DNA of 64,000 nt from Tetraselmis striata (lineage: Eukaryota; Chlorophyta; Chlorodendrophyceae; Chlorodendrales; Chlorodendraceae), in contig VCJN01000654.1 in NCBI GenBank assembly GCA_006384855.1, positions 124,001 to 188,000 of the forward strand, written 5' to 3'. Shown here one piece after another: positions 218 to 60,630 of this stretch (position 1 is its first letter; each line of letters starts with the position of its first letter). The notes below the pieces were generated by a model. That model ran no database searches and was not told the origin of the DNA. It saw only the letters and a program-made list of their open reading frames with translations. A program made the position numbers and the translations under genes.

Positions 218-1710
218 GTGATGATAGTGTACTCCTGTGAAACGGGGGACCGCCCGACGACCGGACGACCCACCACCAGGCCAACTGACGGCCAGCGCCC
301 ACAGAGGCGTGAAGAGCAGGCTCCACAGGAGATCATCCCTACAGCCACCATGGAGTTCAACAGACCCGAGGAGCAACAGAAGGCCGCGGTCGGCGCCGCT
401 CTCGATGCGCCGCGCGGCGGCGAGACCCAACTTCCCAAGATCCGAACCGCCATCAATGCGGAACAAATCGGCAGCACCCGACCAAGACCCGACTGCCCGC
501 CCCAGGCTAACTAACGGCCAGCGCCCTCCGCGGCGTGAAGAACAGGTTCCGCAGGAGACTACCACAACAGCCAACATGAACATCAACAGACCCGAGGAAC
601 ACCAGGCAGCCGAGGTCGGCGCCGCTATCGATGCGCCATGCAGCGGCAGAAAATGACCCCCCAAGACCCCAGCAACCATTGCCGCGAAGAACTTCACATA
701 CACCCGCCTCTCACCTGCTGTCCGCCGCCTCCTCCATCCGCGTCTCGAGCCGCCAGTCCCGCCAGCCCCCAATCGATCTTCCCCTTGATACCGACTGTGC
801 CACGCAAGTCGCCCTGCTATTCGGCAATCTGGCGACACGCAACCGTGCGACGGGGGTCGACCTGCGCCGCAACCGTGAGTTCCAGAACCCGATCCGTGCC
901 CTCGGCCCCAAGCTCAAGGTATACACATCAACCCACAACGTCCAGGCGGTGACCCGACCCGCCCCTATACCGGCTACCGCCGCTCCAGCAGGGGTGAGCA
1001 CAGCCGGACTCGCCACTAACACGGGATCCGACGCGAAACTCGTCGCAGTCAGTATCACGCACCTATATGGGCGGGAGAAGATCGCGACTGCTCACCACCC
1101 GGCGCCGCCTACAGCCGACCAGTCGGCGATGCACCATGGCCAGCTCCCCCAAGAGCTCCAGCCACCACCAACTACCCAGCTACAAGTGGCCCACCCCCAG
1201 GCCGCGGCAGCCCCTCCAGCCACGGAGATGGACAGCGACGACTCGCCACCGGCAGTCGAGCAGCCGGCGACAAGCGTCGATCCAGCCCCGCACCCCGAGC
1301 CGGCTCCACCGGCCGCAGCCCAAGCCCCCCCGCGTCAAGAGAGGCCTCGGAGGCCACCAACCCCTCGAACATACCCCCACATCCAGCACACCAGCCCAAG
1401 CGTCCCGCCTGGCCCAGCTCGCGGCAGAGGCTCATCGCCCCCGCCGCCCCCCGCGCCGGACGGCCCCCTTGCAGCCGCAGGTGGATCGTATGCGGATGCT
1501 CCGCAGGCAAGGCACCCAACCCCAAGCTGGAAGCACGCCCGAGACTATCAGCGCCGCCACCCAAGAACTACGGACGTTTCTAGCCGGTATGCCCGGAATG
1601 CATTTTTCGAATTTACCGCACTATTCCCCGCAAGTATTACAAACAGTGCATCGCCCGACCCGCGGGCTTGGTACCGGTACATGCACGAGACGAAGTCATC
1701 ATGCCATTAA
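218..1710 (+). CDS. Proline-rich mobile-element-like coding region, decayed
   Basis: The product is not recognised. An open frame at 631-1710 (359 codons) is low-complexity and rich in Pro, Ala, Gln and Arg. Its least biased part is near residues 55-110 (CATQVALLFGNLATRNR and following). Upstream, short frames at 218-514 and 504-656 encode two copies of a repeated segment of about 45 residues (QRPQRREEQAPQE and QRPPRREEQVPQE), so this DNA was once translated. It lies just before a 3' module at 1881-2164 that recurs at 60.6-61.0 kb, which points to a retroelement. Codon composition differs from the intron-rich host genes. Alternative: a disordered host protein. Confidence is moderate that it is coding-derived and low for any function. 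Confidence 0.4.
277..652 (+). repeat. Imperfect direct duplication inside the proline-rich coding region
   Basis: Copies at about 277-425 and 504-652, period about 227 bp. Both contain the shared blocks ggccagcgccc, aacagacccgaggaaca-like sequence and gtcggcgccgct. Differences are mostly substitutions that keep the peptide similar, including NRPEE followed a few residues later by VGAA or VGAAIDAP. Confidence 0.8.
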
Positions 1711-1880
1711 ACGCAGTATACTGTGCCAAAAAGAAAATTATATATATTTGAGAAATGGAGGGCATTGTAGCCCCCACCCCCCCCCCCACCCCCCAAGCTA
1801 GCCGGCTCAGCGGTACATAAATACTGAGCACCATATAGCTATTCCGGTTGGCTCCCCTCCCCCATCACACCGCAGTAGCA

Positions 1881-2164
1881 GCAGGCGGGACGCCTCTGGC
1901 TGCCTTAGCGTGCCTGTCGAGCTCTGGATGGGATGGGTCTGACTTAGGTAGGGACAGCAGGGGGGGCGCTGATGTCTTAGCTATAGCCCACTGGAAGGAG
2001 GAGGGGCTAGGAAACATTGGAGGATGGCCGGTAGCTTGAGCTGTGATAACGCTTCGTGTTCCCCACTGTGGTTAGAGATAGCAAGCCCTAAGAGCAACTC
2101 AGTCTGAGCGAGTGGATGCAGTTGACTAGACGTTGTAACAAATTTCAATTTCAATTTCAATTTT
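1881..2164 (+). mobile_element. 3' module of a retroelement with CAATTT tail (copy 1)
   Basis: Three blocks here recur in the same order at 60.63-61.04 kb: gcgggacgcctc followed by ggctgccttag; ggatggccggtagc-tgagctgt; and tggttagaga-ggcaagccct. Both copies end with gactaga, a GTTG-rich stretch and three to four CAATTT units. A conserved 3' end plus a short simple-repeat tail is usual for non-LTR retrotransposons, but the family was not identified. Confidence 0.6.
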
Positions 2165-4700
2165 GCCCCCGAACGCCCACCCCCCCTTTAAGTGCCATGC
2201 TCTCGTCTCCTCACGCGCTCGCCGCCCTCGCCCATTCTCACGGGATGGCTGAGGGTTTCCCGGGTGTCCCAAACAGGACGGCCGCAAGGCGCCGCCGACT
2301 CCGTCGTTCTAACCGTGATGATCGGAGTAGCAGGTGGAACACGTACGGGTGGGGGGGAGGGGGGTACGCCAGTTCCTCTGCCGGTCGGGCGTGGAACGTA
2401 CCGAGGTACGAGAACACGATTATATTTCCAAACAGCCCTCGCGAGTAGGCTGCCCATGGCCGAGTCGTGCAGCCCCCCCTCCCCACCCGTGGGCGAATCT
2501 CGGAGAGGCCGGCGCTAGCAGGTCGGGGTCGTACATTGTTTTCAACAGCCCCCCGTACATGGTTGCTGCCCGACGGCGCCAGCATGTGATGCCGGGACTA
2601 CGAGTGGTATTTGAACCCCCCCCCCCCCTAGGGCTTCTCGGTCGTCGCAGGATCTGAGGAACCGCCACAACCGGCCACCCCGCTTAGCCCCCTACCGCAC
2701 CCAGTCGGGCACGGGTCCCAGGGGCTACCAGCGGCCACCACGTGGAGGTGGAGGTGGTGCCGCCGGGCATGCCGCACCCATGATCCTCCGCTCATGGTGG
2801 GCCGCTGCCTAGTGGTGGGCACAAAGCTGATCTAGTCCTATAAGTGGGGACTATGCCGTCGTGGGTGCGTGTTGGCCCCGGATACCGTTAATGCTTCCCG
2901 ATCTTCGCCAAGGGTGTGTTGATGACTCTGGGCTTAAAAGAGGGCCATGGTCGTGGCCATCCCTTCGTCCACCAAAAACAAACTGCAAAATAGGGCCAAA
3001 CCGTGCTCTCGCTATTGTCCGAGGAGTGCCATAGAGACATTCACCGCCCACAGTGGCGGCGTTTTCGAAACGCTTGGTGTTTCTGTCGGTGGTGACGAAA
3101 GTATAATCCGGAACTAATATGTCTCGCCATCCAGCACCGGCGCGGGAGCGAATGCGCGTCCGAAATCGATTTATCGGCGGCGGCGGCGCAGGATAAGGAC
3201 AAACGGGAGGTGCACAGGGGGCGGTGGAACTGCTTAAAGTACTAATTACAAAACTTTCGCAATTTATAAACCCCCCCCTCCGTTTCCACGGGTAATACTG
3301 ACCTAAACCATGTCATTTTGTCCGAATGGACGTACTTCCCACCCAGCCTAGCCATCTCATACTTTTGGCACATATCCGCTATTTGAGCTAGATGGTGGCT
3401 GCACGCGTGTGGGTTGGTTGCCGCAGGGGGTGTTGTCGAGAGAATGTTGCAAAAAGCCGGGATTTTGGCATTAGATTTTCGCGCGCTTATTAGTGGGACA
3501 CGGGGCTAATTGGGCGTCATTGGGCGGGATGGGCACGGTTCACCCTACAACCCACCCACACCCCCGCCCACAGTTATGGCCGAGGGTGTGGGAGTGGTTT
3601 TGCGGCTTTGCTAGCCATCTTTACTCGGTAGCTGGTCGTGACACAGTGAAAGGTGGGTGGTGGGCGGATGGGCGCCGGACTATACTTGTACGGGATTCCT
3701 ATCTCGTACGTCTCGTGACTGTCGTCCTATCCTCGGTCTTTGGATGCGTCGTGACAGCCGACCACGTGACCGCCCGCATATTCGTGGCCCCACCGTTTCT
3801 ATGCCCCCAGGCGCCGGCTCTCGCAGCATGCGCTAGCGCTACGCTCCACCGGCGGCGGCCAAGTGACAAGGCCGCCAAGCCATTTTGCTGCCGAGATCAT
3901 CCCCGGGCTTGAGCTCCTGCCGGCGGTGTTCTAGGACGCCTCGAGGATCAGAGGTGAAGGCGGGGAAAACATCGTTTCCTCCACACCGGTGCCCGCGTTT
4001 GCTCTCAGATCTCCAGCTGCTTTCCGGGCCGATTCGCCCAACGCGCTGCGGCCACATGGCACATACTGACGCTCCTGGCCGAAGTCGCCGCGCAAGGGCG
4101 GTTTCCTAGGCCCCGTGCACGGTTGATTTTATTACAGCCGCCAACGTGCGAGGCTGTGGTGAGTATTGTAACGCCCCCCGCACCTGGTGGGTCGTGCCGG
4201 CAAAATGTATACAATTCATGATCGCACTTGCATCATCTAGCAGCATGGATCAGCCGCTTGCAAGCCGGCACGAATCAAGGCATATAATGGTTGCGCTAGT
4301 GTTTGGCCAATGATAATATCATTTGACTTTTTATATCATGCGGTGACTCTTTGGAGATGTGCTTTACAATACACCACTGGAGAATACTTATGTTTGGCAT
4401 GTTCAAGAAGGGACACCACGTCTAATTTGGGGAGGACACGCGTCACGGGTGGGGGGTATGTTTCATCTGAATGTTGTTGCTGATTCGGGAGGGAAGACAA
4501 ACTAAATAGTGTAAAATCGCACCCGCCGCGACTTATATTGTCACCAATTACTAATATATAATGCCGCGGGTATCTTTTCATACAATCAGCGTGTTCAGAA
4601 TCGCAGTAATAATCATTACCGAGCGATCAAATAAACCAGCAAACGGCAACATCGACGCGGCAGCCCGTTGCGCTTGTCTTCGTGACATTATATTAGTATG
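2165..4700. other. Stretch without recognisable genes
   Basis: Only short unsupported frames are seen. One frame of 139 codons (3493-3912) has no recognisable motif and a composition typical of chance frames in GC-rich DNA. A C-run lies at 2621-2631 and GC content falls towards the right end, where the repeat island begins. Confidence 0.5.
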
Positions 4701-6203
4701 ATTTTTCGTTCCGCCAAGGTGAAAAAAAAAGTGTTTACAGCAGTAGCATCGCTACTGCTATATTTAATGTGTAAGATCTCGTCAGTCATGGTGACGCGCT
4801 GGCGGACGATTGCTGGAAATCAATATAAATATATATTTCCGCGCGCAACGAGCTACAACATTATGTCGTCCGTATAATGCTTTGCATGTTCATAGATCTG
4901 CTCATGCGTCCTCGCCTTGACTGACTACGCCTTTAAAATTGCGCTTTGTGGCCATGTGGCCTTACCGCATTCGACACTATGCAATCCTCCCACTCCGATA
5001 AGGCGTTTATTTAGTGGTAGCACTTGCAGGAGTGCTTGTAGCAATGTTGGCATTTTGCTCCAGCACAAGGCCGATATAATCAGCTAAAAGAAACGGCACG
5101 CAACACATACCCGGTAGTGTAACAATGTGTTTGAGGCCACCGCTCCACCAACGCACGCGCGCTCCCGTAGTCCCGTTAGTTAGTGGGTGCATATATTTGT
5201 GTGTGGACTGTAGGACCCGTGAAACCGAGCCCAAGGCACGCTGCATGCGCTGCAAATTCTTACCAGTGTGAATATACAATGCATACAACATGTATATCGA
5301 TCGACCATTTAGGCCGCCGTGCGAGCAATATATAAGTCATGTGGTGTAAAAGCATGTATCAAGATTTAACATGAGTGTCGTCCTTTAAATACCGCTAGGC
5401 GAAGGTATCACAGATAATGCGCTTTTGACTCCATACTACGGTATGCTTGAATCAACACCCGCACATTGAGGTAAGGATACATAAGGCACGCGGGCTCGCA
5501 TTGCTCGCATACTCGACAAAACCTCCGAAACCAATGCTCGAGTCTTCGCACGGACGACCCTAGGGTCAAGGCCGAAATGGCGACTAGATCCCCACGTGAC
5601 GACGCGAAGTCCCGGCCAATAACATGTATTTGCACCACATGCAAGTACGCGTGACTAGGAAGTGAGCCGTCGCATGGATGGGCCCATAACGCGTCTTCAG
5701 CCCCTCACGGGATAGATGTTTGGAATACCAAGGAAAGGCGGACCACGCGTATTGTCTGCGCGCCTTATTTGTATTTTGACTTCTTACTATATTGTACACC
5801 AGTCCACAGAAGTCTTTGCACATAGAAATCCGCGCGTATCCTCGCCTCGGTGCCCAAGTCATGGGGCCACGGGGCCATGGAGCCTTGTAATCCAGTGTAT
5901 GCAAGCCTCCTACGCCCAGGAGGCAGCCGTTTCTCCCGGTTATCGCACTTTTAGAATTGTTCTTCGGCAATGGCATTGCTTGGCACATGGCTAAAACCAC
6001 AGAAAAGACGGGCGATGAATAGGGGGCAACTTGTTGGCGGCGTAGCTACCATCCGTCGCATATGCCCACGCGCTGCCGGTGGTGGGTGGACGTACGCATG
6101 CGCTGTAAAACGACCGAGCGCTTGAGCCCAATCCGTGCACGCTACCGATGCAATGCATGACATTTCCATGAGAGTGTGCCAGTAATCCCGTCGTCGTGAT
6201 GGG

Positions 6204-7270
6204 GCCATCATCCCACAATTTTCCAAGCCGCAAGATAAGCGCCGTTGGCCGCGCCTCGCTGGGTGAAAGTAGCGCACATAAAGTGCCTTTGATTCCATAG
6301 GTGCATACTTATACCGCCCGCACCGTAGGCCAAGCGCGGGCTGGCCCCCTCGACAACAATGTCGCCACTGCACCACATGTATGCGCGCATGTTGTCACAC
6401 ATGTCATCCATCATCCAAGGGAGAAGCCAAAATGATTACGGAGTCCGCGCGACGTGGAGATCTATCCAAGGGGTCCTCACGCCTGGGAGCTTGCGTGGAA
6501 GGGCACATTACATGCCCCCATCATGCGCCCCCACCCACAGTGAGTGGGCTGGCTGGGATACCATAACATGGGGTAACTTTGACAGGCCATAACATTTCGG
6601 CTTTTTATCAGATTGGCCTGAAAATTAGTGCGTTGGGAAAGCGCAGGTCACGGGCTTTCCATCTCACTGACCTACAGCCCAATCTGATAAAACGTCGAAG
6701 TGTTGTGAATTAAAACGTGATTGCAGTATTACTGCTTCTTGCATGGCGATCAGACAGTTTGCGAATGTCGCATGCAGCCCGCTAGCTGACGACTCCAAAC
6801 CATGCGCCGCGCGGCATGGGGTAGGTGGCCAACACATGTATCTCGGCGACCATGGGAGAAAAACACGGTTCTTTATGTCCAAATGTCGGCGTGCCGTGCG
6901 CTCAAACAAAAACCGTTCACAGCGCGGCCGTGCAACACTTGTTACACTAGTAGTGCCCCATAACAGGCGACGCGCGCGCCACGTGCGACGTCGCATTAGC
7001 CCTAGCACACCATGTGCACGCTCTTTCATGGTTATCCTCGCAATGGCTGCAACGGCGTAGACTATGCGTGGGTTTACTGACTAGAAGCGACCAAACTCAA
7101 ATCATACCCATAAAACATGCAGAGACTTTTGTGGGCTGCTGTATCACGTGAGATCAGACCCTGCGCGGTGACTCACCCCTAATGCTCGGGGGCTGTCTAC
7201 TTATTCACGATACCCGCCATAACGTCCGATTGCTTCTGAATGTCCTATTGTAATATGAAAAGGGGCGGGC
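6204..7270 (+). repeat. Direct repeat, copy 1 (1,067 bp)
   Basis: It matches 7354-8420 at a constant offset of 1150 bases, and I found no mismatch when reading the rows against each other. The right edge is the sequence aggggcgggc in both copies. Identical frames of 105 and 121 codons occur in both, but they resemble no known protein and are probably chance frames. Confidence 0.93.
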
Positions 7271-7353: not shown

Positions 7354-8420
7354 GCCATCATCCCACAATTTTCCAAGCCGCAAGATAAGCGCCGTTGGCC
7401 GCGCCTCGCTGGGTGAAAGTAGCGCACATAAAGTGCCTTTGATTCCATAGGTGCATACTTATACCGCCCGCACCGTAGGCCAAGCGCGGGCTGGCCCCCT
7501 CGACAACAATGTCGCCACTGCACCACATGTATGCGCGCATGTTGTCACACATGTCATCCATCATCCAAGGGAGAAGCCAAAATGATTACGGAGTCCGCGC
7601 GACGTGGAGATCTATCCAAGGGGTCCTCACGCCTGGGAGCTTGCGTGGAAGGGCACATTACATGCCCCCATCATGCGCCCCCACCCACAGTGAGTGGGCT
7701 GGCTGGGATACCATAACATGGGGTAACTTTGACAGGCCATAACATTTCGGCTTTTTATCAGATTGGCCTGAAAATTAGTGCGTTGGGAAAGCGCAGGTCA
7801 CGGGCTTTCCATCTCACTGACCTACAGCCCAATCTGATAAAACGTCGAAGTGTTGTGAATTAAAACGTGATTGCAGTATTACTGCTTCTTGCATGGCGAT
7901 CAGACAGTTTGCGAATGTCGCATGCAGCCCGCTAGCTGACGACTCCAAACCATGCGCCGCGCGGCATGGGGTAGGTGGCCAACACATGTATCTCGGCGAC
8001 CATGGGAGAAAAACACGGTTCTTTATGTCCAAATGTCGGCGTGCCGTGCGCTCAAACAAAAACCGTTCACAGCGCGGCCGTGCAACACTTGTTACACTAG
8101 TAGTGCCCCATAACAGGCGACGCGCGCGCCACGTGCGACGTCGCATTAGCCCTAGCACACCATGTGCACGCTCTTTCATGGTTATCCTCGCAATGGCTGC
8201 AACGGCGTAGACTATGCGTGGGTTTACTGACTAGAAGCGACCAAACTCAAATCATACCCATAAAACATGCAGAGACTTTTGTGGGCTGCTGTATCACGTG
8301 AGATCAGACCCTGCGCGGTGACTCACCCCTAATGCTCGGGGGCTGTCTACTTATTCACGATACCCGCCATAACGTCCGATTGCTTCTGAATGTCCTATTG
8401 TAATATGAAAAGGGGCGGGC
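7354..8420 (+). repeat. Direct repeat, copy 2 (1,067 bp)
   Basis: Appears identical to 6204-7270. Its left edge abuts the telomere block. Its right edge continues into gcgaatttac, whereas copy 1 continues into the telomere units. Confidence 0.93.
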
Positions 8421-8479
8421 GCGAATTTACATATATCCGCGTAATTGCATCATTCATGTTCTTTTTTGCGTACCACGGC

Positions 8480-8960
8480 CAACATCCAAATTGCGCATGT
8501 GACATGCAGCCCAATAGCTGACCATATAGACGCCACTCCATGTGATGCCGAGCCGCATTTGGCGGGGAGGATTGATATTAGATAAGTATATCTTGCCCTG
8601 ATAAACACCCCCTCCGTCTTATTCTTGTCTACTACACTCCACTATTGGCGTGTCGTGCGCTCAAAGAAACCACGACGTAACTATTTTGCGAGCGCAGTCC
8701 ATGTCGCTCTTTGGTGGCGACCACATGGCAGGTAGAGGGCCCCATGAATCCCACGCCACATACATGATGTTACTGAAACGACCCTAGCGCATCATGTGAG
8801 CACGGTTTGTCATGCGATTACTCCTCATCATTATGGTTGGAACGGCGCAGTTAATGCGCAAGATTGTCGACTATAGAAACGACCCAACAATCGAAATTGC
8901 TTGAAGGTTAGGTACAAACATGCAGATATTATCCCAAGACGGTTCTTGCGGGATGGCAAA
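8480..8960 (+). repeat. Diverged third copy of the direct-repeat segment
   Basis: Blocks align in order with 7915-8280. Examples are catgcagcccaatagctgac against catgcagcccgctagctgac, and ggcgtgtcgtgcgctcaaa against ggcgtgccgtgcgctcaaa. Many substitutions and indels separate them. Confidence 0.65.
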
Positions 8961-9904
8961 AGAAAGATACCATGACGGCGAAAAATAATCATGCGTACGT
9001 AAGCCATGTAAGCACAAAATGCGCGGCTACAAAACATGGATACTAAACAGTTGCAGACCACATCAACCGTACAAGGTGAAGCAGCAATATAAATTGTGAT
9101 GTCCCGGAACCAGTACCTACCAATAAGCGCGCTCCGCCGACAAAACCACAAGGCGACGATATATATTATTGTGTAAAGTGTAAACCACACCCCGCATTGA
9201 CCCCATAGTATCGCACGGCAGCGCTGCTTTTTAGACTCAATCACCATTTCCATTAATCGAGCAGCACTCCTCGCCTGGATACTACCTACGACTAAGTACG
9301 CAGCGCTCTAGTACATGTAGTGGTAAACATCTAATAATGGGCATGTTCCATGTAATGACCAAGACAAACTAACGGCTACCTCGGCGTTCTGCTCAGCGCC
9401 ATCATTCAATATGATATATATCCGCGCGCTTTGGAATACACGGAAATACAACCACTGTATGAGCAGTTTGGTAAGTTCGTTCAGTCCTGATAGTAGTCAT
9501 AGCTCCGCCCCTGCGATATGTTAGCAACATCGACAAGTGGTTGTAGAAAGCAACGATCATGATGGTCCTGTCGTATATTAGCGTCTGTCGGCCGCATGTA
9601 CGCCCCATAATGCCCATGCCCATATCGGTTGTCATTACCATGTAGTCGTCCACGGACGCCACGCACCGGCGGAAGATTACGCCTTTCATAGTTGTTGCGT
9701 GCTTTGTTTCGAAAAGCTAGTCCAACAGAATTTATGAAGCTAGGAGCACAAGGGATGTACTTCATCCAGCTTACTTGTTTTTGCTGATCACTTGTGTGCT
9801 GTGTGGATAACAGCGGGCGGCGGGGTCGTCGGGAAACACATATGAGAGAAAAACAAGCCGAGCCCTAAATATATATACTAAACTATTGCCCCATTAATAT
9901 TTAC

Positions 9905-50040: not shown

Positions 50041-51500
50041 GACCCCCGCCTGGGCATTGCGACACTTCATGACTGAATTGTCTTCCAAGGTGTAAGACGT
50101 TGGTGCGCTGCCTAGCGAGCTACTTGTAGATGTATTGCTCGTTCATTAGACTTCGGTAAGGGCAACCAATTTGCAGGTGCTGGGTATTCCGACCACTATT
50201 CGTTCGGTGGCCGCGTTGCATCGGAACGTGGGTATTGTGTCTCAGTCCGATCGCCGTATCGGGCGTGGATAGTCGGCGCGCCCCACCCATGTTGGGCATG
50301 CGTCCGTGCGGGGGGAGGTTGCAGTGATTCCGCGGCCTCTATGTTTTTATCTCGGCGTACCCGCCTACCGGCTCACATGGGGAACCGTACCGGTGCCGCC
50401 TGCGCGAAGAGCCGGCGCAGCTCCGGGAGGGATATCATTGTTGATTCGATCGTCGTCGGGGGGATTGGAACATGGGTGAAAAGGAGTTGGCGGCTTTGCT
50501 AATTTGCTTCGGCGTTGGCGGTGTCTTCTCGGCGGTAAATATAAAGCCATGTGGCCGCGAGATACATCGGCGCGCAACCGCGGAACATGCCGACCACTTC
50601 ATTGCATGCCTCCTAATTAACCATAGGCCCTCCCCCCCTCTCTCGCCCTCTGCATATGGGTGGACTACTCTTATTGGGACACCTTCGATCATTTCCTTGT
50701 CGTCCTGGCTTCTTTCCTTGTGGGTGTCATCTGTGGGGACGCCCATCATGCATGAACGCATGTCTGCAAAGTCAATTCCCAAACCGACCTGCGGCGATCC
50801 CCCGACCCTCGGAATGGCGAAAGCCATTCCACGATTTCGTCACCGCTAACCCGTTCGCGGTGCTCGCCCGTCTTGATGACCCACAGGTTGGCGGCGGGCT
50901 TTCGGAAGGGGGGTCCCTAGCAACCGGCGCTGATCAATTTATCCACGCAGTGTAGTGGTTGTCGGCGCGCGGGGTAGGGGTTGATACCAAGCTCAAGAGT
51001 CGTCGCCCAGGTGTGACACTTACCCTGTTGTGAACTTGTCATGAACTGTCATTGGCACACTACTGTACAAGTACCATTACCGCATGGTGATGTATCCTTG
51101 TACGGCAGGAACAACCGGAACATGTACCTTCCGTCATCCGTGATGAAGGGCCAACTTCGTGTTCGTAGTTGTTTCGGTGTAGTCCCCTACCCGCCAAAAA
51201 CTGGTCCTTCTTCATAACGAAAGGTCGAAGGACCAGTTTCCTCGTACAACAACACCACCATGCACTGGTATGCATATATAGGACACACGCGATACGAGGC
51301 TTCGCGATGAGTGAAGACAGCGCCGCCATGCATGACGCAGCCTACCCGCGGCCAACATGCCGCAGCGGAGGTAGGTGGCAAGATCGAGCGGAGCCGAGTA
51401 GCATGCAGACCCACCATCCTCTCTCTTGCTGTCTAGGGGGTAGATCTACCCAAACTTTGGCTCTGTGCTGCCGCGGCGTACACGCGCGGCCAATGTGACT
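50041..51500. other. Stretch without a supported gene
   Basis: Frames at 50472-50849 (+) and 50827-50435 (-) overlap each other. Neither has a recognised motif. The composition shifts towards that of the retroelement that follows, so part of this may be older mobile-element DNA. Confidence 0.4.
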
Positions 51501-51699
51501 GGTGGTGGAGGCACGAGCGGCACCGCGGGCGGCGAGGGCCGTCCGCGAGAAGAGGGGCAAACATAGGCAGAGAGGGCGGCCGCGGAAGCGGCGGCTACGG
51601 CGCTGCACGAGCTGGGGGGCGGAACACCCGCCACCCCGCGCACCCGCGCAATTCCACCGGAAGGGGCAGAGGATCTCACCCCCTTACTGAACCTCTATG

Positions 51700-54600
51700 G
51701 GGCAGAGCGACTCCAGGAGCTCCTAGACCAGGCCCGTCAAAGCCGCCCGGGCATGAACCCTGGTAACCCGGGCAGTGACTTGCCCAGGCCGGGCTCAAGA
51801 GACAGGCCCAAGCCTCGTGGCTCCCTAAGGAGCAGCTTGAGCTTTGGCCACGGCGGGTCTGGGTCAACCAGACGCGCTCAAGAGGAGAGGCGCGCACAAG
51901 AAGATTGGCGCGCCCAAGACGAGAAGCGTACGCGGAAGGAGAGACACGCACGAGAGGAGAGCCGCGCGCGAAAGGAAGAACCCACGCAGTAAGGGCCAGG
52001 CGACCATGGCGGAGCCCCCCCCCCTCCCCCCCCGCCGGATGCTCCCTACTGAAATCCCGGGCGGCACCGGCTGGAGGCCAGCCGTCCAGGCTGGCGGTTT
52101 AGGCGCCGCGTTGTCGTGAGACATGGGGCTCGGAGCAAGGCACCGCGTTTGGGAGGAGGAAGAGAGACATGCCTGGCAACGTTGGGCAGGTGAGCACGGC
52201 GTGATCTGTGCCCCGCCCCCTTATGCTTGCTCTAGTACTTCATCACACCCTCTCTCGGCCGCCGGCGCACCGGCAGGCCGCGGGCGAGCCGCATGCTCAG
52301 CCCGGCCGCTCAGCGGAGGTACTACTACCACTATCCCTGCCCGCTCGCGTCATAAGGTCGAATATTGACCGGCAATTCTCGCAGCCGACGAATAATTGAC
52401 TAATAATGGCGAAGCTGGCCGGTAAAATCGCGAATTTGTTAATTTGTGTTCCGCCGACAATTAAGCTGCGCTAAAACGTGGGATTTACTGGCAAATAATT
52501 GCTTATATCCAATTCTCCGCGAATCTCCGGCCATTTTCAGCTGCGCTAGATTCACCATCGACCAGAAATTCTACCCGGCTCGGTGCAGCACCTATAAGCC
52601 CCCCCCCCCCCCCCCCCCCACACCCCGCGGTCCGTATGGTCGGCGCCGCACGGGGCGCGCCCTGTACGGCCTGCTGCATGGCAATCGCGGCGCGCTCGAG
52701 TCATAGCCCAGATTATCATACGGGCTGGTTCTACTTGCACCGACTAGAGCTCGCTTCCGGCCTGGCGATCGGCAGGCTATTTGTTCTAGCTGGCCACAAA
52801 TTCGTTGCGGCGCCTCGCGCGATCGCCCGCTCCGGCTCCGCGATCAGTCGCGCCGCTCCGCCCGCGATTTATTCGCTCACGCGCAGGTGGTGTTTCCTCG
52901 GTGCCCCTGGTTCCGTAGCTCGGGGCCTAGCCCTTGCATTCCAGTAGACTCCGTCTCCCACGGTCGGCGCTTCGCGTTGGCTTCCGCAAGCACCCGGGGC
53001 CTTGCCATGGTCCACCCATCGGCTGCCGGTGCCATGAAGACCGGGAGGGCTCATGTTCCCCGACAACCTGAAGCGCTTCGCCCCGCGCCAGCAAGGCGCC
53101 GCGTCGAGAGGGAAGGCGTATACGGCATGCCGGCGGAGGTATTGGCCAAACTGGATGGCTTTGCTCAACATGGAGGCCCCCACTCCCGCGACTACCGCTT
53201 CAACAGCGACAACACCAGCCGCAACTCGGAATGGACCGCCTCGAAGCGCGATCACGAAGGGAACACCTCGGCCCATGGGGGAGGGGGGGTGGGGGGGCGG
53301 AGCGGTCGCAACCCCGCACCGTGGTGTCAGACGTCACCGCTAACACCGCCGCCCCGGAGGGCATCTTCGCTTTCAACACCGCCACCGGCCATGTCTCCAA
53401 TACGCCATCTGCAAGCTACACCGTCAGGGAGTTTGCGAAGCAGCGGGCTCCCCGTCTTATGCTCCACATGAGCAACCTCGGCACCTCGCATTGGCGCCAC
53501 GTGGACAGCCCGCGTAAAGACTCGGTGCTACTTTGCTACCACCCACCCCCTGGGCGGCGACATCGCGATGTCGCAGGAGGAGCTACCGGACTCGCGATGG
53601 GTGCCGACGGGCACGGCAGAGCACATGGCTTCGACCGCGGTCATGCCACCGTTTTGTTTGGCCGGATCGCTCAGCTGTGCTACCGCATCCTCCGTCCGGC
53701 ATACGGCTGCACCCAAAAGGTCTCCCACGCCACCTCCATGCCACTCGGCGAGCTCGAGGAGTCTGCCCCGTTGTGATCGCAGCAAGCCGTGGACGGTCTT
53801 CAACCGGTGGAGACATGAGAGAAGGCGCTGGAGAATCTGCATAAGGTTTTCGAGATGGTCGACAACAACGCCATGTCCGCATTGAATGTCGTCAAGATCG
53901 ACCCCAACAGCGCCTCTGCCCTGGCAGCGGCTCTCGCCAAGAGCTCCAAGGGAGGCGGGGGTGTACGCCGTGAAGACTACAAGGAGGATCGGACCCTTCC
54001 AAGGCCGCGACCCTCCCAAGAAGCGTGGGCGGGGGCGCGACGACGACCAGGACGTCCGAGAGGCCAAATGCTCGCTTCGCCACCGTGGCAATGATGCGCC
54101 CAAGACCAGGCGGTCCGATGAACAACCACCGAGGCGGAGCGTCTAGGGACTGCTTTGCCGGTGGACGCCAAGAAGCGTGAACTCTACCTGCGGGATAACG
54201 ACTGCGGGCAGTTCCTGGACACCCCGTGCTCCGGGAGTTGTCGAAGGTTCTAGACCTGGACGATCGCCGGGCTGCGGCGCGCTGGGGCAACCGAGCGAGC
54301 TGGAGTTGCATGCGGTCCGCAGGAGCCAAGAGTATTGAGCGCCGGCCCGCCGTCGGGCACGTGGGCAGGCGAAGAGAGCATCACCGCCGAGATCGCCAGC
54401 TGAAACATGCTAGTAGTTTACAAGACCAGTGTGCGCTCCGCACACTTCATGATCAAGCGCTAGTTAGAGCTCGCCAACCGCAGCGGTGGGTACGCCGACC
54501 GCCTCAAGGAGACGGTGGAGGTGGCCGTCGCCGTGGGATTGGCCAAGCGTTGGAACCCCCAGCAGGCTCCCTCCAACCAAGCAAGGCTCAAAACATACAT

Positions 54601-54730
54601 AAATGGTCTGAGGAATGCATGGGTCGAGCTAGGCTTGGCTGGGTAGACGCCATAGTAGGGGCAGTCACCGATGGGCGCACGCTACACCATGCGGTAGACG
54701 GCTTGCTGTCGGGTGTTAGGGAGAGCTAAT
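51700..54730 (+). pseudogene. Gag-like region of the retroelement
   Basis: Frame-shifted coding on the plus strand. 51753-51992 ends in an Arg/Glu-rich helix (RRAQEERRAQEDWRAQDEKR). 52887-53280 carries EGVYGMPAEVLAKLDGFAQH and YRFNSDNTSRNSEW. 53231-53776 carries EGIFAFNTATGHVSNTPSA and YTVREFAKQRAPRLMLHMSN. About 53817-53960 has EKALENLHKVFEMVDNNAMS and VKIDPNSASALAAALAKSS, then a basic stretch KKRGRGRDDDQD. About 54415-54640 gives GGYADRLKETVEVAVAVGLA and ARLKTYINGLRNAWVELG. No zinc knuckle seen. Called gag-like only because it is basic, helical and lies before the enzymes. A C run at 52599-52619 and a G-rich run near 53279 interrupt it. Confidence 0.4.
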
Positions 54731-54971
54731 CATTTCCTCGTTGCTCGGAGTCGTGTAGAGAGCCGCTGATGAGCGTTTGGGCGCGTGGCACGACATGCTA
54801 GACGAGGTCGAAAGCGACGACGCTGCGCGCACCCACCTAATCGCCGAAAAGCTACTCTTCGCAGACATGCATGAGTGATACAACGTTGACCAAATCCTTG
54901 ACGGCGCGTGAGCGCCCGACCTAGGTGATAACACATTGGTGCAACCACATGCATGATCCCTTCCCCAATCC

Positions 54972-56140
54972 GTGGCCACGCTGCACAAGTGGAGCCGGTA
55001 CCCGCTCATACGCTTCAAGCCGGAACGCGTCCCGTCGCTCTGCGACGGAATCGGCTCGTTCCTGCTCGCCATGCTTCGCGTTGGCATCAACATCACCACC
55101 TACCGCACCGCGAAGGTCAGTGACTTCAGCGCGGGCATTTCGGTTGCCAACTGCCCCTCGTTGGAGTCGGAATTCAAGCAGCAGCTGGAACCATGAGCTT
55201 TGACCGGCATCAATGCCGACTACCCCCCAACGTTTTTGAGTTCGCAGCGTTGGCGGCCGACACTTTCGGCCGCATGCCGCCAGAGCTACCCACACAGGTG
55301 GTGGTCACCCCGCCTTGCGTGGGCGGCTTGCACGCGGGACAAGGGCACAGAGTGCGGGAAGGCGCGGGCAGCACCGTGCTCGCAGTGCTCATGATCATGG
55401 AGCTGCTGGGGCGGGAGTGGGAAATCCGCATTTGCAGCCGTTTTTCAGCCGAAGGGCTGTCCCCGTTTGCTTTGGGTGGCTTTTCGAGACGGTACCCGCC
55501 AGCGACAACGACCGCCGGCGTGAGGTGGCAGAGCTGCGCGACATCTACCGGAAGCCAATGGGAGATCACGTCGTCGACGATGCAGCGAGGCGAGGATCTG
55601 CGGCGCGCCGCAAGACACAATTGTTTACCAACTTGGGGGGGGCACAAGACTGGGCATCCTTGCCGCAGCAACCCCCCATCTTGCCTCTTGTACCTATGGA
55701 CTAGCTACTCAGGCTAGGCGAAGTCCCGCAGGTGGTAGACCTCGACTTGGATGGCCGTGCGGAGTGGCCCAATCGAGCGGGTGAACCCATGGAGGGCTAC
55801 CCTGAGATCGTGCGCTCCGAGGGCTCACACGCATGGCCGGCACATCAGCAAGAGTAGTCAACTCTTGGACGTCATGGACTTGGCGTAACAAAGTTGCGAG
55901 GTAATTTGGCGCTCCCCTCACATGTGCAGCTGGAGCGGGCATTGGGCCTGCCAGCCGATTGGATCCCTTGGTCCACTCTGGTGTGTGACGGGGGGAGCAG
56001 CGTAGGAGGTCACCGACCCTGAGGAGAGAGCGGCGCGGGTGGGAGACATTTTTGACCCGAACCTTGCAGAATATGTACTCCGCAATCGCATCCGTTCCAC
56101 CGATGGGCTGGCTGAAGGGCAAGGCGAAGCGCAAGGCGGG
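54972..56140 (+). pseudogene. DNA cytosine-5 methyltransferase domain inside the retroelement, decayed
   Basis: Such enzymes transfer methyl from SAM to C5 of cytosine in DNA. The motifs appear in the order of the family but in three frames. Motif I is in frame 54972-55196: VPSLCDGIGSFLLAMLRVGI, with DGIGS at 55044-55058. Motif IV is in frame 55193-55450: QVVVTPPCVGGLHAGQGHRV, with the catalytic PPC at 55310-55318, followed by GAGSTVLAVLMIMELLG. Motif VI is in frame 55315-55704: FGWLFETVPASDNDRRREV, where the usual ENV is ETV. Motif VIII is GSAARRKTQLFTNLG near 55594-55638. A target-recognition-like part, GRAEWPNRAGEPMEGYPEIV, starts near 55750, and ERALGLPADW near 55931-55960 resembles motif IX. 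Gaps between frames need two shifts and there is a stop near 55702, so this is a dead copy. Its strand and its place just before the RT argue that it belongs to the element. Confidence 0.82.
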
Positions 56141-56341
56141 TGCAGTGGGGTAGGTGGACGACCAACCGGCCCATGTACGCGGGCAGGAAGGCAAGCCACG
56201 CTATCGTAGGCTACCCCCTCAAGGCTACTCCGGGGCAGTGCCATGCCGCCGCATGCAGGTGGACAACAGCAAATGCATGCAACATGCAACGGGCCGGATC
56301 AGAGAGCGCCCTACAAGGGGACGACGAAGCAGATGGGGGGC

Positions 56342-56365
56342 GGGGGGGGGGGGGGGGGGGGGGGG
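56342..56365 (+). repeat. Homopolymer G run in the retroelement
   Basis: 24 G between the methyltransferase and the RT linker, followed directly by the frame DEAELFISLPIKLLPAV. Unlike the host genes, the sense strand here carries G. Confidence 0.9.
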
Positions 56366-56369
56366 CGAT

Positions 56370-57720
56370 GAGGCGGAGCTCTTTATTAGCTTGCCCATCA
56401 AGCTGCTGCCGGCGGTGGCAGCAGCCGCCAGGGTTGAGTGGCTGGAGCGTGTCAAGCCAACCCCCAATGCAGTGCCCGAGGAGATGGAGGCCGGGTCATC
56501 AGCGGACAACAAGGCGCGAAACTAGCTCAGGCGGGCCTTGCGTATCATCGAGATGATGAAGCGCGGAGAACGCCCCTTGGAGTGTGACGTGACAGACGCA
56601 AACTTTGCCGAGTTTCAAAAATACGAGTGCATCACCTCGGGAGAGGACTTCCCGCCCGGAGGCATTCACGAGCACCGACGCTATTGGTGGGAGTACTTCG
56701 AGGCGCTTTTGCCGAAGGAACAGCGGTCGTCCCAGCGCGTACAAAATGTGAAGCCCTACCTTCGCGACGGGCCTCCAACGGAGTGGGTCAACCCCTACAG
56801 CGATCAGCAGCAGCAACACCCCAAGTGGGCGAAGAAGCTATCAGACGTGAAGGATATGCTGCTGCACGCGGGGTGCGACGCGGCACATGTGGAGCATGTG
56901 ACAACATCGGACGAGCCCAAGTACGTGTCGTTGGGCAGCCACCCCAGCATGGAGAACCCTGAGCTCGCAAGCTTTGCTCGCGCGGAGGTGGGGAGCTGAT
57001 CGAAACCTGGCGAATCAAGGAATGGCGCGGGCCAGTCGGCAAGCCCCCCATTTGCATCCTGCCGATGGGGGTAGTCGTGAAGGCGATCGACGGCAAAATG
57101 CGGCTCATGTTCGACGGGAGGTATGTCAAACTCTTCGCCCTCTATCAGGGTTTCAAGTACGAGAAGTTGTCCAACGTCCGCTGCCGCTGGGCGCCTAGGG
57201 ACACCAACCCCATGGTATTCGCCGATAACAACTCCAAGGTGCCCGACCCGTCGCACTGGGGCATTACTACCCCGAACATCTACTACGAGGTACTGACGGC
57301 ATTGAAGGTGGACCCGTTGGACATCACGCTCAACTCCTTCGGGGACGAAATTTTCCACTGAGCACCGGCCTTTTTCTCCTTGGATCTTGTTGAAGGGACA
57401 GCATGCGTCGACGGCTTCCTGCAGAACTGGAAACCCTTCGTGCCCGAGACAAATTCGCGTTTGTGAACGGGCCGTGCGGTACCATGGCGATGGTGCTGCG
57501 CAAGGTGAAGAAGGAGCGGGTCAATTGCGTGCTCATTGTACCGGTTTGGCATGGGTGTCGCTCCTCAAAAAGCTGCCCATCGTGAAATCTTACACGATGT
57601 AGCGGCGCCGCAACAACCGGGGACAACGCATCCCAATCTTCCAGCCGGGTAGCCGGGTGCATGCGGGCCGCAAGGGACCCGAATACTGGAGCGTTAAGGC
57701 CTATCTCGTCAAGTGGAGTT
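56370..57720 (+). pseudogene. Reverse transcriptase-RNase H with internal deletion
   Basis: 56370-56999 is the linker before the RT (RIIEMMKRGERPLECDVTDA, HRRYWWEYFEALLPKEQ, LRDGPPTEWVNPY). A one-base shift near 56990 leads to GELIETWRIKEWRGPVGKPP and the RT fingers: ILPMGVVVKAIDGKMRLMFD, GRYVKLF, GFKYEKLSNV. The next residues are RCRWAPRDTN, which belong to the end of a retroviral-type RNase H domain, so the RT catalytic core (including YxDD) and most of RNase H are deleted at about 57180-57190. The tail continues ITTPNIYYEVLTALKVDPLD, then in another frame FVNGPCGTMAMVLRKVKKER and VNCVLIVPVWHG, then LLKKLPIVKSYTM. This matches the conserved C-terminal block of DIRS-type pol proteins. It ends near 57720, tail-to-tail with the recombinase. 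Confidence 0.8.
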
Positions 57721-58419
57721 AGACACCTTAAAACGCTTAGCGTGGCGAGTGGGGTGCGGGTAGAGGCGCAGTGTCTTAGTAGAGCTCCATACCCAGTCGT
57801 GCGCGATATCTTCCACAATTTTACCATTACGCCGAGCAAACTGGGTGGCACCACGGCGCAGGCTGTGGGTGGTCTCGCCGTGCCACTGCCTCAAAGCATG
57901 CAAGTAGCCCTGCAGCCTTTTGTTGAGGGCATTGGGCTGTAGGGGCGATCGCTTGATACTTTGACCGCCTGGGGCAAGCGTAAGGGTAGGGAATTGCCAT
58001 ACGCCGAGCATGGAGGCGCCCGATGCGGACTAGGCCTTGTCGTACCCCTGCAGGTTCGCCAGCAGCATATCGGCCCCGATGCGGGGGTCGAAGTTGGCAG
58101 GAAGGTGCAGCACGCCATGGTGACGCGTCTTGCGTGTCTTGGTGCTAATTGACGACTCCAATATGATGGGGTGGGGCGCAGTAGCAAGCGGGGCGCCGGA
58201 AACTATAAAAGGCCACGCCGGGTCACAAGCCAAATTCAGGAAGGTTAGGTCGCTCACCAATAGGCGAGTGCATTCCTTCCCGCGCTGGCCGGTCTCACAC
58301 AAGTAATCGAACATGCGCAAATCGCGCCATAACACCAACGCTGCCATTCCGGTAGAGTCGCCGATCTGCAAATGAAGATGGTCCACCAGGAGCATGGGTA
58401 CTGCTCCGGCCGGCGACAC
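57709..58419 (-). pseudogene. Tyrosine recombinase, inverted relative to pol
   Basis: This enzyme type joins circular element DNA to the target by a tyrosine-linked strand exchange. The frame at 58419-58030 has ALVLWRDLRMFDYLCETGQR followed by GKECTRLLVSDLTF, the R-box (first catalytic Arg in TGQRGKE near 58295-58275). The frame at 58011-57709 has NALNKRLQGYLHALRQWHGE and then THSLRRGATQFARRNG, the HxxR box (near 57880-57835). DWVWSSTKTLRLY follows, giving the Trp and the candidate nucleophile Tyr near 57785-57775. A frame change between the two parts (58030-58011) shows decay. The order R, HxxR, W, Y is that of the family. It would be read from its own promoter or from the other strand of the element. 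Confidence 0.82.
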
Positions 58420-58429
58420 GCTAGCTACT

Positions 58430-60436
58430 TCGAGGGGGCAACGCTATCGAGGCCATCCGCCTGCAGACATACCTCACCACGGCCCCCGCTAACAAACTAT
58501 ATACCTATGCCGGAGTACCGGTGCTCCCCCGCATCGATGCCCCAGCTATCTCTCAAGACCTCCGTGCACAACGCGTTGTATGCATATCCAGCCCCATGTT
58601 CGAGGACTGGTCCGGCCCAGGGCTACATGCGTGACTGACCAACATCCTCACTCCTATGCTTGCACGATACAAATGGGCCGCCAATGCTAGGAGCACCACC
58701 CGTCGCCCGAAATCCTCTCCAAGGTGGTAGAGACATGCACGGCCCAGGCTTAAGGCGAGCATGACTCCCCCGCCAACACCAACCTTGACGGCACACCGAT
58801 CACCCCGACGACGGAGGTTCGTCGCCCATACTCTGCCATATGCGAGCTCCTCGAAGTTGTTCACATTCACAAACCTCGTTTCCCTGCCCACACGGCCCGA
58901 GTGGAGCTAGCCACTACCAAGGCTGCCGACCCGCTGGCTATGGCTGCCGAAGGGACGGCCATCTGCCTCCCGGCAACAGCCTTTATGCTCGCGCTCTATC
59001 TACAAATGAGCAAAACCCCATTGCCATACACCTCGCACTATGGCCAACCACCGCCCAATCCAGTTAGCGATGACTCCTCCACCTACGTCGTCGACTGCCA
59101 TGCTTCTTATTTGGAACCCCCTTCACCAAACCCAAGCCCGACGATACACAGCTAGCAAAGGCGGTAATCGATGCACTCCGCCGCGAGCACGCGGCGCTTC
59201 CAGAGGGAAGCCCACACACCATGGCCCGCTTGTCTGAGGAACCCTGGGAGGCCGGTGTTGACCCATATTTATACCCGGCGACCCTTGACATGTACAAGTG
59301 CCGGTCCGGGGCCACCGCAATACATTGCCGTCCCATCTCCGATAACCCGGGGCTTCGCGTTGTGCCATGTCCCTCCAATCCCCCCTAGGCGTCATCTTTG
59401 CGGTCCATCACTCGAAGCGCGTCCGCCTCCGCATAGAGGATGACCGTGAGGCCCAGACCGCTATAGGGTGTGTCCTCCTCCCCCTATAACCCCTCTCACT
59501 ATACCCGCAGGCAACCCCTCCCGCCGCCCAGCGTGGCTGTTCAGCGCCAGCCCAGGCCGCAACGTCGATCTCCGCTTCCATAATAGCTCTTTGGGCGCCT
59601 ACGGAGGAGGCGCCCTGGAGGCATACACACCAAGGCCACACACACCGAGGCCGAGCGCACCGAGTTCCAAAAAGCGGTGATGTCCCATCTTACGGTCTAG
59701 ACCGCCGTGGAATATACCCACCACACCAATACACAGAGATCCGTGGACCCCAGACGCTCTCATCCCGAGCGCCTCCCCCAGCCCGTACGACTTATCACAC
59801 CGGTCGCAGCAGAGGCCATGGGCAAGGCCGCGGCCGCATCCCGCCACCCATCGCCTCCGAGTCATGGGCACAACACAGCCCACCACGCGAGGAGGCACCG
59901 GACGTGGCCGTCTCAACTCGCATCCGCACCCGACCAACCCGCCCGGTCATCGCTAGAGGCATGACTACCGGGGGCGGCCCACAACCCGCCCAAAGCCACG
60001 GCCCCGGTCCCCGGGAGAGATGCGTGTCGCACAAACCCCCCCCCCCCCCCCCCCCCCCCCCCGCCCCCCGCCCGCCCGGTCAACCCCGGTCCTGCCCTCC
60101 CCCCACTCCGGAAGCCCCCCGCGGGCCAGACCCCGCCTTCCGGCAGACCTCACCACCGTAGACACCTCCCTAGAGACTGTTCGCGGCACCCTCCTCGTTC
60201 AAGAAGCGGTCGACCAAATCAACCGCAGCTCCCCCCGCAAACGCATCCGCATCGCAAAAAGAATTGCCTCCCTCACCACGGGCGGCCCGCTCCGGCACTC
60301 CCTTACTCCACCCCCCTCACCCGCTCTCCCTAGTGATGAGGAGCGGATAACCGACGAAGAACCAGACTCAGGCGCCGAACTCGACGACCTAGTCGAAGAA
60401 GAAGACTACATGGACGTAGACGTGGAAGGCCTATGA
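58430..60436 (+). pseudogene. Unidentified mobile-element ORF with acidic C-terminus
   Basis: Plus-strand coding in shifting frames. About 58885-59150: TKAADPLAMAAEGTAICLPA, FMLALYLQMSKTPLPYTSHY. About 59150-59390: KAVIDALRREHAALPEGSPH, MARLSEEPWEAGVDPYLYPA, TLDMYKCRSGATAIHCRPIS. About 59385-59470: GVIFAVHHSKRVRLRIEDD. It is Pro-rich to about 60160. The last frame, 60020-60436, ends with AVDQINRSSPRKRIRIAKRI and an acidic tail (EEEDYMDVDVEGL, stop TGA). It then runs into the 3' module at 60.63-61.04 kb, so it is probably the coding part of that element and not of the recombinase element. Two C runs (60036-60062, 60438-60464) lie in it and just after it. Confidence 0.4.
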
Positions 60437-60630
60437 GCCCCCCCCCCCCCCCCCCCCCCCCCCCGCCCTGACCACACAACAACCCATGCGCCCCAACGGA
60501 GCGCCAATCGCAACCCCCGCTGGCCTCGGGCCATTTAACATATTCCCCTCTGGCACAACCACCACAACCACAGGCTTGAGACGGCACCTCTATTTGTGGC
60601 GGAGACCCCTGCACGGGGCGCGGGGCAGTA

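Follow-up and report, generated by a model that had tools for sequence, protein, structure and literature searches.

A putative DNMT3-like cytosine methyltransferase in the Pol protein of a tyrosine-recombinase retroelement family from the green alga Tetraselmis striata

The closest described system to the element reported here is SymbioDIRS-Dnmt3 (de Mendoza et al. 2018, PMC5890265), in which, according to passages of that paper, a DNMT lies in the Pol ORF together with RT, the tyrosine recombinase is separate, and the repeats follow an A-coding-B-A-B order. Two architectures, independently acquired, are distinguished there. Passages of a 2025 survey (PMC12344493) place retroelement DNMT3 in streptophytes and dinoflagellates. 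Other sources describe, in the sections concerned, a Dam-type domain in the Pol of DIRS elements (PMC3266345, PMC3783388), and passages of one further source name Gypsy and DIRS elements that encode Dam or Dcm jointly for a number of lineages, green algae included, with the enzyme not assigned per lineage (PMC6338049). No chlorophyte DIRS element with a C5 methyltransferase was found among the matches listed in titles and abstracts of the open-licence PMC literature. The original prediction for the present locus held that retroelements had captured C5 enzymes only in other classes and that the combination with a DIRS-type element was undescribed; both statements were mistaken, since SymbioDIRS-Dnmt3 is a DIRS element with Dnmt3 in Pol, published in 2018. 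Its central claim, that a green algal retroelement of DIRS/Kangaroo type carries a C5-type methyltransferase, is confirmed by other copies.

The window is a 64,000-nucleotide stretch from the chlorodendrophycean green alga Tetraselmis striata (VCJN01000654.1, 124,001-188,000), and its own positions are used below. It contains an element copy with a broken C5-cytosine methyltransferase (MTase) followed by RT/RNase H remnants on the same strand and, on the other strand, by a tyrosine recombinase (YR). The putative DNMT3-like MTase domain spans 54966..56092 on the plus strand, broken over three frames, as judged by tblastn with the MTase ORF of L013, an open relative in the same genome (best E 1.3e-46), by shuffles, and by alignment A2. 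The five C5 motifs that had been predicted, DGIGS (~55044), PPC (~55310), ETV (~55486), GSAARRK (~55594), and ALGLPADW (~55939), are present as placed, but in three frames with in-frame stops; GDIFDPNL at ~56042 is presumably motif X-like. Further along the plus strand, a linker between MTase and RT (56370..56993; residues 531-612 of the L013 MTase ORF match 56370-56615 at 46% by tblastn, and the frame has one internal TAG) leads into the N-terminal part of RT (56996..57178; residues 41-101 of the L013 RT ORF, 57% identity). An MTase directly before RT/RNase H, as predicted, is therefore right in order and strand, but the core itself (residues 102-451 of the L013 RT ORF) is absent from the window at about 57175, and similarity resumes at residue 452 with a stretch past the RNase H core (57173..57445, plus strand, residues 452-541). 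A Dam-like methyltransferase remnant with the motif NGPC, recognized by similarity to relatives (57454..57716, plus strand), is an element part absent from the predicted list. The YR expected beyond RT was found on the minus strand at 57721..58416, in the orientation opposite to Pol; it comprises the C-terminal part, including HSLRRG (tblastn with the L013 YR ORF, 51%, E 5.9e-65).

With its stops, its frameshifts, and about 350 codons of the RT/RNase H core gone near 57175, the window copy is old and dead. Comparison with the C1997 copy gave dN/dS values of 0.86 for MTase and 1.07 for the RT part, as expected for dead copies. The region at 53355..54960 (plus strand; blastn, 84% to the C1997 copy) may be a degenerate Gag/5' region; it had no tblastn match to L013 Gag and could not be aligned with it. 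Next to it, 51433..53358 (no strand assigned) is a flank common to both copies at 83-84% (blastn), whose left edge reads, by eye, as the antisense start of another element's RT. Since the flanks of both copies are alike to 51433 at the same 83-84%, they probably represent one insertion, duplicated with its surroundings. About 777 bp at C1997:101169-101946 are absent from window position 53358, which represents an insertion or deletion in one copy. No terminal repeats were found in the window. Runs of ~20-28 C or G were seen at ~52600, 56335-56365, 60037-60066, and 60436-60466, some of them in or beside coding remnants, and changes in the length of such runs could explain some frame breaks of this copy.

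Of the eight matches returned by a nucleotide search of the genome (224 Mb, 2903 contigs) with the window region, one was the window itself, one was a long relative on C1997 (84% over the first 2.2 kb of the query), and the remaining six were shorter. A search with the MTase ORF of L013 gave at least 56 matches at E ≤0.001, a lower bound given that 71 of 107 candidates were scored. Thirty of these, fetched with sequence and 1.5-kb flanks, represent 24 distinct places; from the other 26, one place was taken in (C653, L054; see below). Within the fetched flanks, RT ORF similarity lies beside the MTase in 19 of the 24 places. The RT part is matched in 12 (C2085, C332, C1997, C511, C31, C2232 twice, C488, C2525, C1411, C792, and C1496), only the later part of the RT ORF in seven (C1546, C550, C1620, C407, C470, C100, and C2676), and no RT ORF match was obtained in five (C1618, C1600, C8, C2849, and C1225). 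The contig positions of the C470 and C2676 matches are nearly identical, so these two are possible assembly duplicates. A homologue search identified P0001 (jgi/Tetstr1 TSEL_022089), whose first part is identical to an ORF of the C1546 copy. L013 (C2085), recovered from the 10-kb surroundings of the nucleotide-search matches, encodes Gag (453 codons; CCCH fingers matched weakly, below Pfam cut-offs), MTase (622 codons), and RT-RNase H (644 codons) on one strand and YR (485 codons) on the other.

In the young copy L053 (C2232:262500-271500), Gag (315-2147) precedes a Pol frame (2545-6741) that is uninterrupted over 1399 codons and comprises MTase, RT (YIDD), RNase H, and the Dam-like region, while YR, on the minus strand, has one stop. 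This arrangement, with MTase, RT, and RNase H in one frame, Gag upstream, and YR inverted, is of the predicted kind. Its parts were assigned by tblastn with L013 ORFs (MTase, 28%, E 1.4e-30; RT ORF, 35%, E 1.9e-114; YR, 33%, E 2.6e-35), and Pfam returned no RT, RNase H, or YR match on it. Five more places are 97.6-99.2% identical to L053 over 2.3-3.0 kb; among these six copies, the matched MTase is free of stops in three and has one or two stops in the other three. The open frame running from MTase through RT in L053 implies that both are encoded as one protein, and since related copies keep this fusion, the MTase has the appearance of a functional component of the element.

Several other arrangements were seen. 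At C923, C1447, and C1989, RT-ORF and YR pieces occur with no MTase in stretches of 17-18 kb, and similarity starts only inside the RT ORF (residues 253, 109, and 387), so that these loci speak neither for nor against copies without MTase at the Gag-RT junction. Six loci (L038, L040, L044, L046, L047, and L048) are devoid of the same 1.6-kb middle, the RT core at Pol nt 1580-3163, and retain MTase and C-terminus at 89-96% identity. In the three that were examined, the same two stops recur within or close to the MTase, which suggests that these loci form a dead lineage derived by deletion. Adjacent to the C1546 copy, L014 5888-9901 holds open Gag and RT-to-Dam (NPPW) ORFs of a more distant YR-type element, with no C5 MTase between them. 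Beside the C1997 and C923 copies lies another element with a Gag-like ORF (L009, complement of about 7429-9900; L012, 6754-7311), which in L009 also has a forward YR (SHSLRKG).

The family appears to have the PAT/kangaroo layout, with Gag and Pol on one strand, an inverted YR, and split A/B terminal repeats. YR occupies the minus strand, opposite Pol, in the window, L013, and L053. The split direct repeats, A1-ORFs-B1-A2-B2, were pieced together from two copies, C2085 and C1546. The right end of C2085 shows an 842-bp unit in B-A-B-A-B order with the junction GCATTCCAGTTC-CATAGT-GAACTGGAATGC; the units of this tandem array (C2085:20327-22569, L013/L021) are 99.8% identical and include the 5' end of the YR ORF. 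At the left end of C1546, the A repeat directly follows TTAGT. An A1 repeat was not found in C2085, nor were terminal repeats in L053. Domain models matched weakly: the L013 RT ORF reached RVT_1 at E 1.2e-6 (28.9 bits, just below the cut-off of 29.6) and, in PDB, Pr125Pol at E 3.4e-4 with Ty3 weaker, and L013 YR reached Pfam Phage_integrase at E 0.0018 (18.5 bits versus a cut-off of 27.1). RNase H was recognized in the family not by Pfam but by alignment and by TDSQ, which we take to be its motif.

The C-terminus of Pol matches phrog_111, a family described solely as "DNA methyltransferase" (L013 piece, E 2.1e-5; L013 ORF, E 1.5e-4; whole L053 Pol, E 0.0024). The L014 piece, which lacks the Dam-like part, gave no phrog_111 match, and Pfam found none for the Dam-like region of L013 and L053. 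At the motif, L013 and L053 have NGPF, the window has NGPC, and C923, C1447, and C1989 have NGPY, NSPY, and DGPY, respectively; it aligns with NPPW of another YR element of the same genome. On the grounds of place, motif, and literature, we infer that this domain is the Dam-type domain of DIRS elements.

The MTase proved more difficult to classify. Searches with single MTase sequences, such as that of L013, or with pieces yielded no Pfam, NCBIfam, or PDB match; for the L053 MTase, the matches were phrog_363 ("DNA methyltransferase"; E 4.7e-4) and, below cut-off, PF00145 (E 0.26). The Pfam C5 model remained below cut-off on every member tested (window pieces, L013, and L053), so elements of this kind may be overlooked. 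Profile searches of PDB were more informative. Profile A2 had 32 matches, of which the first 24 were all DNMT3, with 29 DNMT3 in all and three unrelated proteins; the 26 matches of profile A3 were all C5 enzymes, 23 of them DNMT3. With the L053 family added (profile A6), all 32 matches were C5 enzymes (29 DNMT3; best whole-sequence E 3.7e-4), the others being two chains named DNA methyltransferase (4onj and 4onq) and one tRNA (cytosine(38)-C(5))-methyltransferase; these matches are sums of three weak, short colinear stretches over motifs I, IV-VIII, and IX. Among the C5 MTases of PDB, the element enzyme thus appears closest to DNMT3, as judged by profile matches and not by a tree. Pfam detected no ADD or PWWP domain in L013 or L053. 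A scan of viral_contigs with A3 gave 73 pattern matches, none confirmed, a third homologue search added only P0005, a 74-aa piece, and an AlphaFold model of A4 was uninformative (pLDDT 33.8).

C5 motifs I, IV (PC), VI, VIII, IX, and X occur in order. Over 20 alignable places, including C1997 as taken from its in-frame pieces, motif VI reads ET in 17, EA in two (C1546 and C792), and EM in one (C1225), and never EN. Its Glu is thus present in 20/20, and the Cys of motif IV is present in 19/20, the stretch being absent in C1546. The homologous proteins P0002 and P0003 keep the same motifs, with PPC and ETA. Since motif VI is never ENV, catalysis is not assured, yet C5 enzyme activity is plausible.

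A different candidate was encountered at L054 (C653:39500-46500), where a 1271-codon ORF on the minus strand (6999-3187) contains PCIF1_WW (E 3.3e-15), C5 DNA_methylase (E 4.9e-9; 36.5 versus 22 bits), and RNase H (E 4.3e-11), each exceeding its Pfam cut-off, and is followed by a cysteine-rich ORF. Its MTase is canonical (ENV, PPCQPFS) and colinear with that of L013 (BLAST, E 1e-18), PPC aligning with PPC and ETA with ENV, and so connects the L013 enzyme to a domain that Pfam recognizes as C5. By itself, the domain of L054 has matches of similar strength to M.HhaI and DNMT3A, so that the DNMT3 affinity of the element MTase rests on the profiles. Further matches of this kind are at C2687:20069 and C2172:117441. 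L054 is possibly a second kind of retroelement, with a canonical C5 MTase and a PCIF1-type domain, in which RT was not seen; we found no literature uniting PCIF1, retrotransposon, RNase H, and alga.

The MTase is under purifying selection. Between L053 and L037, L041, L051, and L052 (76-77% DNA identity), its dN/dS is 0.133, 0.166, 0.158, and 0.161, respectively; for the first three, the RT part gave 0.105, 0.092, and 0.107 (L052 has too few codons), and the linker of the same ORF gave 0.37, 0.31, and 0.37 (L052, 0.81 from 60 codons only). The MTase values resemble those of RT and lie under those of the linker, which indicates a constraint similar to that on RT, maintained through divergence to 76-77% DNA identity. 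In the young copies compared with L053, MTase dN/dS ranges from 0.04 to 0.36, from few changes. C2085 and C1546 gave 0.245 for MTase, 0.234 for the RT part, 0.34 for Gag, and 0.335 for the Dam-like part. In the RT-core-deleted derivatives, the MTase is nearly neutral (L044-L047, 0.97; L044-L038, 0.82).

Two readings would deprive the window MTase of any connection to the element. The motifs are short, frames are broken, and none of nine pieces taken from the region, including four from the MTase, had a Pfam match, as might be expected if the motifs had arisen by chance in GC-rich sequence. L013 aligns along the window at 54966-55265, 55196-55429, 55471-56013 (49% identity), and 55985-56092, however, and the best real HSP scored 136 bits, whereas none of 200 dinucleotide-preserving shuffles exceeded 24.6, a comparison on which chance was rejected and which leaves it almost no probability; the other 1.3-kb tiles of the window (n=39) reached at most 21.9 bits versus 136 for the MTase stretch. 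It could also be supposed that an element had inserted into an unrelated host gene, for the window by itself shows the pieces only side by side. This case, which the original prediction had itself named as contrary to its claim, is ruled out by the single frames that run from MTase into RT in L053, L032, and L035, and the joint occurrence of MTase and RT ORF similarity in 19/24 places leads to the same rejection; we consider it next to impossible.

The two remaining alternatives accept that the MTase is carried and selected. It might serve something other than DNA cytosine methylation, as a non-catalytic nucleic-acid binder with its ENV changed or as a modifier of element RNA; RNA methylation is discussed for SymbioLINE-Dnmt in a passage by De Mendoza et al. 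(PMC5890265). The absence of ENV from all 20 aligned places and from P0002 and P0003 favors this, as does the lack of a clear CpG decay signal. The C-to-T differences between window and C1997 amount to 4.7% at CpG, 7.8% at CHG, and 4.9% at CHH, and those between C2085 and C1546 to 9.7%, 8.7%, and 6.6%, a slight CpG lead, the direction of change being undefined in both; CpG o/e is 0.91-1.02 in the window, C1997, C2085, and C1546 copies and 0.92 in window 1-40000. These two copy pairs thus gave no clear sign of methylation. For SymbioDIRS, no significant CG depletion is reported either, in the same paper in which passages describe its Dnmt3 domain methylating CG in yeast (PMC5890265). Against a role outside DNA methylation, the motif IV Cys and motif VI Glu persist almost throughout, and L013 and L053 keep both at only about 30% identity; we regard such a role as rather unlikely. 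Alternatively, the MTase might act mainly on the host, methylating its DNA or shaping its silencing in trans. The five copies nearly identical to L053 suggest recent family activity, and according to the relevant passage of PMC9998398, no DNMT3 was found in any green alga of MMETSP, so the element could provide the cell's only such enzyme. The position within Pol speaks for a role on cDNA instead, and we hold an action mainly on the host to be improbable.

We therefore favor, as a probable though by no means secure account, a Tetraselmis YR retroelement family whose DNMT3-like MTase at the Pol N-terminus marks the element's own cDNA before integration. In the order DNMT3-like C5 MTase, RT, RNase H, and Dam-like domain, the MTase would be made together with RT, might then mark new element cDNA or a circle before YR integrates it, and the marked copy might be tolerated or protected, as proposed for SymbioDIRS-Dnmt3. 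It is tempting to speculate further, more tentatively, that one Pol combines two selected DNA methyltransferases, a DNMT3-like C5 and a Dam-like N6-adenine enzyme, both marking element DNA, and that the capture was independent of that in dinoflagellates and took place where MMETSP has yielded no report of a cellular DNMT3. Tetraselmis striata grows in culture. Given the young, near-identical copies, this alga would allow a test of what retroelements gain from a DNA methyltransferase.

With this family, tyrosine-recombinase retroelements that carry a DNMT are known from core chlorophytes as well as from dinoflagellates. As far as the published description goes, by which and not by sequence the two were compared, SymbioDIRS-Dnmt3 (PMC5890265) likewise is of DIRS type, unites a Dnmt3-class MTase and RT in one Pol ORF (as in L053), and has a separate YR, split repeats, and an MTase under purifying selection; the three homologue searches, which admitted proteins of 0.55-1.75 times the query length, returned none labeled as Symbiodinium. 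SymbioDIRS-Dnmt3 differs in its dinoflagellate host and in reportedly keeping key DNMT residues, whereas motif VI in Tetraselmis is mostly ET, and the passages describing it name no Dam-like domain such as ends the Tetraselmis Pol. KnitGypsy-Dnmt3 of Klebsormidium, as described in the same paper (PMC5890265), shares a Dnmt3 in a retroelement Pol within the green lineage, but that Pol is of LTR Gypsy type and the host is a streptophyte. DNMT3A/3B (PDB 6kda, 2qrv, and 8te4) have the same motif order and provide the best profile match, yet they are too distant for single-sequence search and have EN instead of ET. The PAT/TOC/kangaroo elements of Volvox and Chlamydomonas resemble the Tetraselmis family in their split direct repeats, a YR that can be inverted, and their green algal hosts, and DIRS1-like elements have a Dam-like MT in Pol to which its own C-terminal domain may correspond; the passages on PAT/TOC/kangaroo mention no C5 MTase, in contrast to the family described here (PMC3266345). 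Apparently new are the occurrence in a chlorophyte, a PAT/kangaroo layout in which YR is inverted, a motif VI with ET (17/20) and never EN, and the union of a C5 MTase and a Dam-like domain in one Pol.
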